Positions 10,140 through 14,866 of a stretch of 64,000 nucleotides of DNA are shown here, one piece after another. The stretch comes from Halobacteriovorax sp. GB3. Lineage in GTDB: Bacteria > Bdellovibrionota > Bacteriovoracia > Bacteriovoracales > Bacteriovoracaceae. Within the stretch, counting starts at the first letter, position 1, and the number at the start of each line of letters is the position of its first letter. A program made the position numbers and the translations under genes. The notes under the pieces were generated by a model, which searched no databases, was not told the DNA's origin, and was given only the letters and a program-made list of their open reading frames with translations. Location: assembly GCF_028649655.1 (NCBI RefSeq), contig NZ_JAQSLN010000002.1, positions 124,001 through 188,000 on the forward strand. Reading direction: 5' to 3'.

Positions 10140-10174
10140 TTCATCCTGGATACTTTTCTAGCGTCGGTGCGTTA
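10140..10174 (+). repeat. Copy 1 of a 35-bp intergenic repeat
   Basis: Identical over 35 bases to 12017-12051 and a 31/35 match to 14802-14836. The shared core is TCCTGGATACTTTTCTAGCG. This copy lies in the 95-base gap between the SNF2 start codon (minus strand) and the stop of the 103-aa membrane protein gene, so it is in the SNF2 leader or promoter region. It has only one arm of the palindrome seen in copy 3. Confidence 0.85.
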
Positions 10175-10212
10175 AATTTATTTCAGTTAGAAAACTACTT
10201 CAAAAGTAAGAA

Positions 10213-10524
10213 TTAATCTTTTAGAGATTGTATTAGTTTAAGGTTTCCGCAATAAAGGCTCATAAATAAGACTTGGTCGTAAGTTTTAAAATAGAGAAAT
10301 AAGGGAATCAACCCCAATAATGTAACTGTAGTTAGAACATTCGTCGTCTTATCTAAACTCAAGATTCCCTTTTTCGACTTTAGACTTTTTAAGTAAGAAA
10401 CCGATGATAAAACCGTGACCAAAAAGTAAGTAGTAGCCGTAAGTATTTCGCCATTGAAATAGTATATTGCAAATGTTGATATTAGAATAATAATGATATG
10501 AATGATTTGGTTTTTATTGTTCAT
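10213..10524 (-). CDS. Small three-helix membrane protein, unknown
   Basis: Encodes 103 aa with three likely membrane helices at about residues 6-25, 28-45 and 62-82. The loop between helices 2 and 3 is lysine-rich (LKSLKSKKG). No family was recognised. The start lies 9 bases downstream of the stop of the 455-aa secreted protein gene on the same strand, so the two are probably one operon. A role in membrane docking or immunity for its neighbour is possible but unsupported. Confidence 0.6.
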   Translation of the reverse strand: MNNKNQIIHIIIILISTFAIYYFNGEILTATTYFLVTVLSSVSYLKSLKSKKGILSLDKTTNVLTTVTLLGLIPLFLYFKTYDQVLFMSLYCGNLKLIQSLKD

Positions 10525-10533
10525 GAGTTATTC

Positions 10534-11901
10534 CTATTTACAGTGTTTTACTGGCTTGTTGCTTTCATTTTTCAAAATTTTACAGTTTCTTTTTGCAATA
10601 CGGTTTTTTATCTTTTTATTTCTCTGAAAATGCTCTGAAAGTCTTTCTTGAGTGCTTTTGATTTCAGAGGAATTGTTGATTTTAATTTTTCTACAATCTA
10701 TTTCTCTTTCATTCTTGTTTAAAAAAAGATTGATTTCATTACATCTCATAATCCTTTTATCTTCTTCTTTCTTTCGTCTTTTTTCTTCAAGGTCTTTATT
10801 TTCTTCTAGCTTCAGCTTTGTTAGTACAAAAGTCGTGGCATCATAACTATTTTGACCATTTTCTTGTAATAGCTCGTAGTCATCGCGAATTTCCTCCAAT
10901 AATTCTTCCGAAATTTCAGATCTTTTTGTTTGAGCGTCTTTTTTATTCTCTAATTTTTCAATTTTTTCATTGTTATCTTTCTTAATTAGTTCCACTTTTT
11001 CAAAATTTACTTTATTGCTTTGGCCTGTTTCAGTGTTTTTGTCATTCTTATCGATATCTTCCTTATTTTTGGAAAAGTCATCCTTACATGATTGATAGCA
11101 ACCGTTTGGAGCTATAACTGTTGTTGCACTTGCTCCAACGATAGTTGAGGCAACTGGTGTGAGTACAGGGGAGAGATATTTTGCAATACTAGCACCAGCT
11201 GAGAGAGCTGTGATAAAAGATGAAGAGCATCCAAGGGTGCATTTTATAGAGAGTTCGTTATTTTGACTCTCATTAGGATTTTCTTTTATTTTCTCTTTGA
11301 ATTCGAAATAACTCTTCGAGCTTATGATCTCTTCGTATTCTGGCCATTTTTTAATTATTTCTTTTTCTTGTGATTTCCTCTCTTCTTTTAGTTTCTTTAG
11401 AAACTTCTGATTTTTAAGATAATTTCTTTGAATTTCTTTGGAGAGCTTTTTAAATTGAGTATGATTAAATATAATGTCAAAGTTCTTGTCTTGTCTTATA
11501 TTTGAAAGTTGAAACTCTATAGGGTTATCGAAACTAAGACTTTCTTTAGTATTAAACTTTTCACTAAGTCTTTTACCTTTTATGGGATCGAGATTTGAAA
11601 TAATTCCATTCATCCTATTGGCCATGGAAAATTGATTACTTACTAGAAGATTCAGGTAAAAATTTTCGGCTTCTTCTAAGATCTTATTAAAACACTTTCT
11701 TGAAGCTTTACATATCTTCATATTTTCGTATTTTTCTATTATTGATTTTGTACTATCTGTAAAACCATCCATTATGATGGCCAATTGAATTAGACCCTTG
11801 TTCGCATTATCAGGATTTATGGAATAAAGCTCTTGTATTTCTTCTGAATAGACACTCTTAAGTGAAATTGTAAAAGCGAATATAAGGATAAGGTATTTCA
11901 T
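10534..11901 (-). CDS. Secreted, charged helical protein with a hydrophobic Gly/Ala/Ser segment between two CxxxC pairs
   Basis: Encodes 455 aa. A signal peptide (MKYLILIFAFTISLKSVYS) is followed by about 200 mainly charged residues. Cys221/Cys225 then bracket, with Cys268/Cys272, a 42-residue apolar stretch rich in Ala, Ser, Thr and Gly. The remaining 180 residues are highly charged, coiled-coil-like Glu/Lys/Asp/Asn. A ribosome binding site GGAGG lies just upstream of the ATG. No family was recognised. The hydrophobic hairpin-like segment within soluble helices recalls pore-forming or membrane-inserting secreted proteins, but that is inference from layout only. Confidence 0.65.
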   Translation of the reverse strand: MKYLILIFAFTISLKSVYSEEIQELYSINPDNANKGLIQLAIIMDGFTDSTKSIIEKYENMKICKASRKCFNKILEEAENFYLNLLVSNQFSMANRMNGIISNLDPIKGKRLSEKFNTKESLSFDNPIEFQLSNIRQDKNFDIIFNHTQFKKLSKEIQRNYLKNQKFLKKLKEERKSQEKEIIKKWPEYEEIISSKSYFEFKEKIKENPNESQNNELSIKCTLGCSSSFITALSAGASIAKYLSPVLTPVASTIVGASATTVIAPNGCYQSCKDDFSKNKEDIDKNDKNTETGQSNKVNFEKVELIKKDNNEKIEKLENKKDAQTKRSEISEELLEEIRDDYELLQENGQNSYDATTFVLTKLKLEENKDLEEKRRKKEEDKRIMRCNEINLFLNKNEREIDCRKIKINNSSEIKSTQERLSEHFQRNKKIKNRIAKRNCKILKNESNKPVKHCK

Positions 11902-12016
11902 AAGTCCTCCAATTTATAGACTGAAGGTTATTTAGACTTCAAAAGCACATTGAGCAACATGTCTTAATTAGAATACACGCCAGTTTTTCATTTCTGATAA
12001 ACCATTTTCATCCATT

Positions 12017-12051
12017 TTCATCCTGGATACTTTTCTAGCGTCGGTGCGTTA
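12017..12051 (+). repeat. Copy 2 of the 35-bp intergenic repeat
   Basis: Identical to 10140-10174 and in the same orientation. It lies between the divergent starts of the 455-aa protein gene and the membrane ATPase gene, 42 bases upstream of the ATPase ATG. A short partial duplication (TTTTCATCC twice within 12006-12024) adjoins its left side, which could be a footprint of insertion or slippage. Confidence 0.85.
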
Positions 12052-12093
12052 TTAAAGGTGGACGGAAAGAGAATTTATTGAAAGAATTTTATA

Positions 12094-14022
12094 ATGAACA
12101 TTCAAATTACTGATTATTTTACAAAATTAGGTCCATGGTTTTTAGAAGTATCGAATTTCTATAAAACGGGTACAACCGAACAGCTAACGAAAGAGCTTTT
12201 TCTAATCGGTAGCTTTATCCTCTTGCCTCTTGTCTACAATTTTTTGAAAAAGAAAATTATGAATCAAGCAGTTCGAATGAGACTAGGTTTGATTAATAGT
12301 ATTACATTGAGTTCTCTCGAGACAAGGGCTGCATTCTTTCTCCAGTGGGCGGGTCCATTTATTCCTTATGTTCTTGCTCTTGTGTTTTTAGTTGTCGCAA
12401 GAAAGATTCTAATGGAGACAGCATTATCTGATCTTGTATTTATACTTTCTTTTATCAAGTTTTATGTTGTCTACTTGATTTTTAATCAGCTATTTATTAG
12501 TGCGCTTAGACTTTTCTCTGAATTTGCCGGAGTCAAAAGAGAAAGAGATAAAATTCAAAAAATTCTAAATGATTCAAAACTATTCGCCAGATACTTATTA
12601 TTCTTTTTTGGTTCTCTTTATGCAATTGAGCTCACTTTAAAAAAGGGACTTGTATACGAATACGCTTTCAAAATTCTCTTTATTATTTTGATTGGTCTTT
12701 TTTATAAGTCACTAAGAAACTGGAGTGTTGAAACACAGAACATTCTTAAAAAATACTATCCTAAGATGGAAACAATTTTATTTTCAGGTAGTGCTTTCAT
12801 AAAAAATGTACTTCTTCCAGTGGGATTTCTTCTCGCATTTTTTCATTTCTTTTGGAAAAAGCTTAAAGGACAAATTTCTGAGTGGTCCATAACTAGAGCT
12901 CTCGCGACAAAGCTCTTTCAAAAGAAACTAGAGACTTCAGAACAGTTTGAAGAAACTAATATTGAGGATATCTCAAATCAATATCGTTCTGCATTTCAAG
13001 AAAATAGAATTTACGTTGAACAAAAAGTTGTAGATAAAATTTTTGCGGAAGTTGATGAATGGCTTGTCGATAAATCTGAAGAACATACTGTTGCAATCTA
13101 TGGCGAAAAAGGTGTTGGTAAAACACTGGCCCTTAATAAATTAGCAGAGCGTCTACAAGGAAAAGACTGTGAAGTTATTTATCATAAATTTAACGAGAAG
13201 GTTTCTACAAAGAAACAACTCTTTTCATTGGTCGCTGATCTGCTCGGAATAGAAGAGTTTGAAGAGATCTCTAAGATAATTGAGTTCGATCAAAAGAATG
13301 AAAAGAAAGTAGTACTATTCGATGATGCTCACCATCTTTTTCTGTCTGAATATGGAGGGCTTGAAGGAGTTAAAGCACTTTTTGAAATTCTAAATGCGAG
13401 AACTGAAAATATTTTTTGGGTTGCTTCATTTAATCAGTACTCTTGGAGCTATATTAGTCAGGTCTTTAAAAAGAATCAGTATTTCAGGGCCGTCTATAGA
13501 GTTGATTCTTTAAGTGAAGAAGCCTTACAAGACTATATTATGACAATTCATAATTCGACGAAGTATCAGATTAGCTATTCTGATATTATTCAGGCCTTAA
13601 GAACGAGTGACGAGACTGGATCGACTTCTTATGTTGAGACACTTTTTTTCAGAATGCTTTGGGATACGTCTAAGGGAAATGTCGCCTTAGCAACTCATCT
13701 ATGGTTTTCATCTTTAAGACCTTGGAGAAGGAAGGCGTTTAAAGTTGGCGTTCCTGTTAATAAGAAAACTGATTTTTTGTCGGGACTTTCTGATGATACG
13801 CTATTTATTTTTGCAAGCATTATGAGGCATGAGTCCATTCGAGCTAGAGAGTTGGTCGGTGTTACAAATATCAGTGAAGGAACTGTTAGACATGCACTTC
13901 GTATCGGATTAGAGAATGAAGTTCTAATTAGAAATGACGATGGAATTTACTCTTACAATGTCTCTTATCAATACCCACTAGTTAAACACTTAAAGACGAA
14001 GAATTTTATCTATGAAGAATGA
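12094..14022 (+). CDS. Polytopic membrane AAA+ ATPase with C-terminal winged helix
   Basis: Encodes 642 aa. The N-terminal 270 residues contain about six hydrophobic membrane segments. A cytoplasmic AAA+/STAND-like ATPase follows, with Walker A GEKGVGKT at 337-344 and Walker B VVLFDDAHH with Asp410 and Asp411. The C-terminal 80 residues look like a winged helix (RARELVGVTNISEGTVRHAL). The family is not one I can name. The 3' end overlaps the MscS-type channel gene by 11 bases, so the two are very likely made together. ATPase-gated or ATPase-sensed control of the channel is inference. The ribosome binding site is weak (GAAAG). Repeat copies flank the pair. Confidence 0.8.
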   Translation: MNIQITDYFTKLGPWFLEVSNFYKTGTTEQLTKELFLIGSFILLPLVYNFLKKKIMNQAVRMRLGLINSITLSSLETRAAFFLQWAGPFIPYVLALVFLVVARKILMETALSDLVFILSFIKFYVVYLIFNQLFISALRLFSEFAGVKRERDKIQKILNDSKLFARYLLFFFGSLYAIELTLKKGLVYEYAFKILFIILIGLFYKSLRNWSVETQNILKKYYPKMETILFSGSAFIKNVLLPVGFLLAFFHFFWKKLKGQISEWSITRALATKLFQKKLETSEQFEETNIEDISNQYRSAFQENRIYVEQKVVDKIFAEVDEWLVDKSEEHTVAIYGEKGVGKTLALNKLAERLQGKDCEVIYHKFNEKVSTKKQLFSLVADLLGIEEFEEISKIIEFDQKNEKKVVLFDDAHHLFLSEYGGLEGVKALFEILNARTENIFWVASFNQYSWSYISQVFKKNQYFRAVYRVDSLSEEALQDYIMTIHNSTKYQISYSDIIQALRTSDETGSTSYVETLFFRMLWDTSKGNVALATHLWFSSLRPWRRKAFKVGVPVNKKTDFLSGLSDDTLFIFASIMRHESIRARELVGVTNISEGTVRHALRIGLENEVLIRNDDGIYSYNVSYQYPLVKHLKTKNFIYEE

Positions 14023-14800
14023 TCAAGTTAATCAGGTTTTAGAGCTACTTAGAGTTCAAAACATTTTATTTTTAATTTTTGGAATCCTTCTTATTATAGG
14101 ATGTGTTCGAGTTGTTAATAAACTTGGAGAAAAACTCGCTGAGAAATTTGGAAAAAATCGTCTCGCTATTCTACAGGTTTCAACCATTATTTCTTTCAGT
14201 CTCTATGTCTTGGGGATTCCTTTTATTATTTATCTTGCTTTCAGGCCGCCGAGAGAGTTGATCTTTGCAATAGCAGGTTCTCTGGCTGTTGCGATCGGTT
14301 TTGCCATAAAAGATGTTGTCAGTTCATTTGTTTCTGGAATTGTTTTTCTCTTTGATAAGCCCGCTCAAGTTGGCGATAGGGTTATGATAGGAGATACCTA
14401 TGGTGAGATTACGAGTATTGGTCTTCGAGCAGTAAGATTAACGACTTTAGACGATAACGTTGTCACAATTCCTAACACAAAGTTTATTACAGAGCAGGTT
14501 AGTTCAGGAAATTTTGGTGCATTGAATATGATGATTGTAGTGAACTTTCATATTGCACTGGATGAAGATATTAATACAGTGACTGATATACTTAATGAAA
14601 TCGTTGTGACTTCTCGCTTTGCTTATCTTGCTAAGCCGATTAATGTCGTTGTTCAGGAAGTTGAGATTGCGATGAAGCTTGCTTATCGTTTTAGTGTGAA
14701 GGCCTATGTTCTCGATGTGAGGTATGAAAAGGCCTTTCAGACGGATATTGTAAAGAGAGCGAATAAAGTTTTCCTCGAGCGAGGAATTAAACGCCCCTAA
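14012..14800 (+). CDS. MscS-family mechanosensitive ion channel
   Basis: Encodes 262 aa, close to the E. coli MscS length. It has three membrane helices (about residues 18-35, 53-77 and 83-110). The third is the Gly/Ala-rich pore helix (AGSLAVAIGFAIKDVVSSF), followed by the beta-domain signature DRVMIGDTYGEI and VTIPN. It would form a heptameric inner-membrane channel that opens under tension. It is translationally coupled to the upstream membrane AAA+ ATPase, which is not a standard MscS context. The stop is 5 bases before the large inverted repeat (copy 3), which could act as terminator. Confidence 0.9.
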   Translation: MKNDQVNQVLELLRVQNILFLIFGILLIIGCVRVVNKLGEKLAEKFGKNRLAILQVSTIISFSLYVLGIPFIIYLAFRPPRELIFAIAGSLAVAIGFAIKDVVSSFVSGIVFLFDKPAQVGDRVMIGDTYGEITSIGLRAVRLTTLDDNVVTIPNTKFITEQVSSGNFGALNMMIVVNFHIALDEDINTVTDILNEIVVTSRFAYLAKPINVVVQEVEIAMKLAYRFSVKAYVLDVRYEKAFQTDIVKRANKVFLERGIKRP

Positions 14801-14801
14801 A

Positions 14802-14866
14802 TTGATCCTGGACACTTTTCTAGCGTCATTGCGTTAGACGCGCAGCCGCTAGAAAAGTATCCAGGA
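14802..14866 (+). repeat. Copy 3 of the repeat, forming a 20-bp-stem inverted repeat between convergent genes
   Basis: The left part (14802-14836) matches copies 1 and 2 at 31 of 35 positions. The arm at 14806-14825 pairs with 14847-14866 (CGCTAGAAAAGTATCCAGGA) over 20 bases with one mismatch. The 21-base loop contains a smaller hairpin, GCGT-TAG-ACGC. It lies exactly between the stops of the MscS gene (14800) and the convergent small secreted protein gene (14873), so it could serve as a bidirectional terminator. It could also be a complete small palindromic mobile repeat or paired insertion-sequence ends. Confidence 0.9.

Follow-up and report, generated by a model that had tools for sequence, protein, structure and literature searches.

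The repeats that lie beside several genes in the window (the whole stretch of 64,000 nucleotides analyzed) very probably form a small family of the REP/REPIN type (TIR-type), whose units have their counterparts at the two ends of a single-copy HUH/Y1 transposase gene of the RAYT/TIRYT type. This match to one transposase gene makes a REP/REPIN family the likeliest reading, rather than special boundaries of gene modules. Among the options raised by the first-pass annotation, REP-like palindromes is therefore the best supported, as copies match both ends of the Y1 transposase gene.

Three sites in the window carry the repeat. A single 31-base unit, TCCTGGATACTTTTCTAGCGTCGGTGCGTTA, is found on the forward strand at 10144–10174, between the start of an SNF2-helicase gene (10117, reverse strand; 26 bp away, with the unit upstream of it) and the stop of a 103-aa ORF (10213). 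The same sequence recurs on the forward strand at 12021–12051, between the start of the gene for a 455-aa protein (11901, reverse strand) and the start of an ATPase gene (12094), 42 bp upstream of the latter. The identity of these two copies includes four bases to their left (TTCA), and the 35-base sequences at 10140–10174 and 12017–12051 are indeed 100% identical, as had been annotated, with the third copy at 14802–14836 matching them at 31 of 35 positions (89%). The third site is an inverted pair, or REPIN-like doublet, of 61 bases at 14806–14866, lying between the stop of an MscS gene (14800) and the end of a small convergent ORF (14873). Its facing units, at 14806–14836 on the forward strand and 14836–14866 on the reverse strand, abut and are predicted to form one hairpin (z −7.6 and −9.2). 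The 20-bp inverted arms reported for this site (14806–14825 and 14847–14866) are present, although they agree at 19 of 20 bases with one C/T difference, and the element, given earlier as 65 bases long, measures 61 between the outer arm ends and 65 if the four bases from 14802 are counted. Overall, the repeats are real and lie where they had been placed. Four matches to the 20-mer occur in the window when up to 3 mismatches are allowed, with 0.00 expected from 100 shuffles. The 31-base unit is roughly TCCTGGAYACTTTTCTAGCGTCNNYGCGTYA, usually with a T-rich stretch and a G ahead of it (consensus TTTTnG).

The family extends across the genome. A pattern search of the 3.62-Mb genome with up to 3 mismatches yielded 14 matches versus 2 in the reversed control, and a sequence model trained on 12 copies yielded 17 matches at E ≤ 10, 15 of them at E ≤ 1e-3; 12 of these 15 are the training rows of the model, and we take the two weakest matches (E above 1e-3) as chance. 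The copy count that had been proposed as a check thus comes to 15, so the element is not confined to the window, and the copies correspond to 12 loci when each of three inverted pairs is counted once. In addition to the pair in the window, there is one at C4:240831–240891, which is also 61 bases long and of the same design, and a shorter one of 47 bases at C1:723013–723059. These three are, as in REPINs, inverted doublets dispersed in the genome, each forming one predicted hairpin. At C1:723013, the one site tried, the gene neighbors differ in relatives and synteny is not conserved. Seven of the ten loci that are not gene ends lie on contig C2, the contig of the window, which makes up 9% of the genome (P 5e-6); this test took in all units and not the doublets alone, and after merging near copies and dropping the cluster at the transposase gene the value is P 0.012. 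Literature searches for the 31-base repeat returned nothing, within those searches only.

The transposase gene is located on the same contig at G000:C2:210266–210895, 71 kb downstream of the last repeat in the window and past the window end. The earlier statement that no transposase gene is nearby thus holds for the window itself but not for the contig. Repeat copies at C2:210246 and C2:210982–211001 face each other across the gene, and its stop codon falls inside one of them; the gene therefore has what is expected of a RAYT, inverted copies of a dispersed repeat at both ends, and it also has the expected low copy number, being the only such gene in its genome. The 209-aa product matches the Pfam model Y1_Tnp (3.9e-7; 30.7 bits, above the cut-off of 23), and its HUH motif (NHFH) and its Y---NP motif align with those of relatives, giving the features by which RAYTs are recognized, a Y1_Tnp domain that includes the HUH and the catalytic tyrosine. 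The closest NCBIfam model is REP_Tyr_transpos ('REP-associated tyrosine transposase'; 5.5e-18), although at 65.2 bits the protein does not reach its cut-off of 80. A sequence search of the PDB gave E. coli TnpAREP (4er8) as the sole match, at E 0.051 and across the core domain. In the alignment, ATTGCG stands in the gene-end copies where most dispersed copies have CTAGCG, so that the ends of the gene as it is now differ from the dispersed type. Around the gene, four repeat copies fall within 3 kb (L015:4686–7710), an arrangement that resembles the one at 10144–12051, and a lipoprotein-like orphan of 474 aa lies between two of the four.

The same architecture is found in relatives. A related Y1 transposase is encoded in 25 of 58 other genomes (26 of 59 with our own); six such genes are present in G056 and four in G012, and the genes at L058 and L075 carry an in-frame stop. 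When each gene was scored by the best inverted repeat between its two flanks, 23 of 29 (own included) reached a score of at least 15, versus none of 400 random stretches, for which the maximum was 14; the loci below 15 are L055, L059, L060, L061, L067 and L073. The sequence of these ends varies among the genes. GGT[AG]C, GTGCCA or GTGTCA, a motif set chosen after inspection, occurs near the outer end in 14 of 18 arms from relatives versus 0.5 in shuffles, and the repeat of the window has no strict match to it. Similarity between proteins and similarity between their ends are weakly correlated (Mantel r 0.22, p 0.033, 17 genes). In G001, G041 and G046 the repeat flanking the transposase gene is dispersed too (15, 30 and 12 matches; 3, 0 and 0 in reversed controls), so that all four genomes examined follow the same pattern, one transposase with one dispersed end family. 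Matches to the window's repeat itself, at 2–3 mismatches, occur in 27 of the 58 other genomes, one or two per genome in most cases, which is near the reversed control, and not one of the 29 other transposase loci has its head TCCTGGAYACNTTT within one mismatch; we therefore read the repeat as not shared. A wider contig scan gave a single distant locus, in an Elusimicrobia MAG, and plasmids gave nine weak matches. From its gene content, the genome itself probably belongs with the predatory bacteria (Bdellovibrionota).

In G041, 15 of 21 repeat loci lie within 350 kb of the transposase gene, with 5.5 expected if the contig is assumed to be circular; with linear distances the result is reversed (p 0.999), as expected for a circular contig, and a second transposase gene used as a control point gave p 0.13. 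The G041 gene is found ~140 kb away from the start of its contig, and dnaA lies at that start (we take the protein to be DnaA from its sequence); since the gene is thus also near the origin, closeness to the gene and closeness to the origin are inseparable.

Several features sit less comfortably with a REP/REPIN family, namely that single units, unlike classical REPs, do not fold and lack the GTAG tag, that gene-end and most dispersed copies differ, that transposase and ends co-vary weakly and that the NCBIfam cut-off is missed. The 61-base pair looks like a terminal inverted repeat, as would be left by solo ends of an unrelated, lost insertion sequence such as a DDE element, yet a Y1 gene of this genome has the same ends on either side and no direct target duplications, which had been suggested as a check, are seen by eye beside the pairs; we regard such an origin as scarcely credible. 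The solo ends originally envisaged were nevertheless close in spirit, as the copies match the two ends of the Y1 gene. It is very unlikely, if slightly less so, that the repeats act as transcription terminators or as RNA elements that serve the cell. A long hairpin is predicted for each of the three inverted pairs, with z from −7.3 to −10.1, and the one at 14806–14866, sitting between convergent genes, could act on both transcripts. However, no terminator-like site was called there (the 5 that were called in the stretch lie at other positions, and 3.0 were expected), the predicted folding of six single units is no better than that of shuffles (z −0.74 to 0.67), the window is without any Rfam family, and repeat units are also found upstream of genes.

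The copies might instead be recombination or mobility boundaries, with 10144 and 12021 as the direct copies between which the segment carrying the 103-aa and 455-aa genes was inserted or can be lost, an explanation that we consider unlikely despite several observations in its favor. These two copies share all 35 bases, whereas other pairs of copies agree at 20–29 of 31 positions, and the GC content of the segment is 30.2–30.7% as compared to 34.6% for the window. The 455-aa protein (10534–11901), by eye exported and charged, has no Pfam or PADLOC match and no homologue in the 43 other genomes searched. The 474-aa gene enclosed by two copies next to the transposase gene is likewise without a match in 38 other genomes, as is that of a 775-aa protein beside a copy; the YcaO/OsmC protein beside a copy has matches in 25 of the 38, some over part of its length. 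These counts, taken without a genome-wide null, are no more than suggestive of modules. Downstream, starting 42 bp after the copy, the ATPase has 642 aa, as compared to 950–1021 aa in seven of eight relatives' loci and 768 aa in the eighth; the exported N-terminal region of ~350 aa that most relatives have is missing here, and no trace of it was found in the window. Against this, repeats of the REP/REPIN kind are normally intergenic, so that some bracketing of genes is expected by chance, and no site lacking the segment was seen. Moreover, homologues of this membrane ATPase occur in 11 of 43 other genomes and the gene for the MscS-type channel directly follows the ATPase gene in all eight relatives' loci fetched, as it does here (12094–14800), which indicates that the pair is an old, conserved operon and not a repeat-borne module. 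Recombination sites for gene modules, one of the options of the first-pass annotation, are not demonstrated, and of that option only the 103/455-aa segment between identical direct copies remains suggestive. A defense role was also considered, and PADLOC gave just a weak mad8 match to the ATPase. Separately, in 9 of 13 relatives (L154–L166) AATTCTTA, mostly within TAATTCTTAC or TAATTCTTAT, was noted by eye ~50–70 bases upstream of the YcaO/OsmC start.

If the repeats are a REP/REPIN family, the Y1 transposase would recognize the ~31-base end in single-stranded DNA and would cut and join DNA with its tyrosine. The facing pairs, with their long hairpin, may then be the mobile unit, and the single units may be solo or decayed ends. 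That the 209-aa protein moves the repeats, and that it does so in this manner, we infer from sequence. A previously unexplained repeat is now tied to one specific transposase gene outside the window, and the pairing of transposase and repeat recurs across relatives with different sequences each time; these transposase/end pairs, the ends of which are non-GTAG, could be used to work out a recognition rule. More tentatively, and with considerable doubt, the pairs could represent a phylum-wide class of Y1 transposases and repeats in which single ends, starting with GGT[AG]C or GTGYCA, need not fold by themselves, the repeats spread mainly near their own gene, and direct copies frame orphan segments (such as the 103/455-aa segment) that are exchangeable by recombination.

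The family described here is most likely a further member of the known general REP/REPIN kind, without the GTAG tag and the hairpin in the single unit. With the RAYT/REP and REPIN systems, as far as they are laid out in the parts of Bertels and Rainey 2011 (PMC3116915) drawn on here, it shares a one-copy Y1 gene with inverted repeat copies at its ends, and dispersed doublets (their hairpin is predicted here) with single units alongside. It differs from REPs in having no GTAG tag, no hairpin in the single unit and a low copy number (15); by alignment and folding, the GTAG (or GTGG) tag at the hairpin foot that each canonical REP unit carries is not found. REPIN doublets are reported there to be randomly distributed in extragenic space, in contrast to the copies here, which, with all units tested, are not randomly spread and are clustered on the transposase contig. 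E. coli TnpAREP (PDB 4er8), the core domain of which is matched at E 0.051 only, is described in the relevant part of PMC8266576 as acting on GTAG-tagged hairpins, again in contrast to the repeat here. Relative to the TnpAY1 subclasses of Quentin 2018, as given in the portion of that survey consulted (PMC6006769), the Y---NP signature is as in class 2 and the HUH motif matches the NH[YF]H of subclass 2.1, whereas none of the listed subclasses has exactly the motif set found here (NHFH, IFGGRYK, YVLQNP). The same portion states that subclass 2.1 genes have no REP-like sequences nearby, unlike the transposase here with the repeat at its ends; the pairs bear on this statement if the genes belong to subclass 2.1, the nearest by HUH motif. 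The TIRYT/TIRtron of Di Nocera 2013 (PMC3733652) is, in the sections of that paper considered, a Y1 gene bounded by terminal inverted repeats other than canonical REPs, the repeats being moderately abundant as dispersed singles and dimers and able to overlap the gene end. The gene here indeed has, on both sides, long inverted repeats that bear no relation to GTAG REPs, and dispersed singles and dimers and the gene-end overlap are seen as well. The GGGGWSAS motif, described in those sections as common in TIRYT repeats and not universal, is absent from the alignment of the repeat here, and the ends in relatives mostly carry GGT[AG]C, GTGCCA or GTGTCA (the 14 of 18 arms above, post hoc). As far as these sources go, the core features of a RAYT are present without the canonical REP tag and single-unit hairpin, and the TIRYT description of 2013 fits best.
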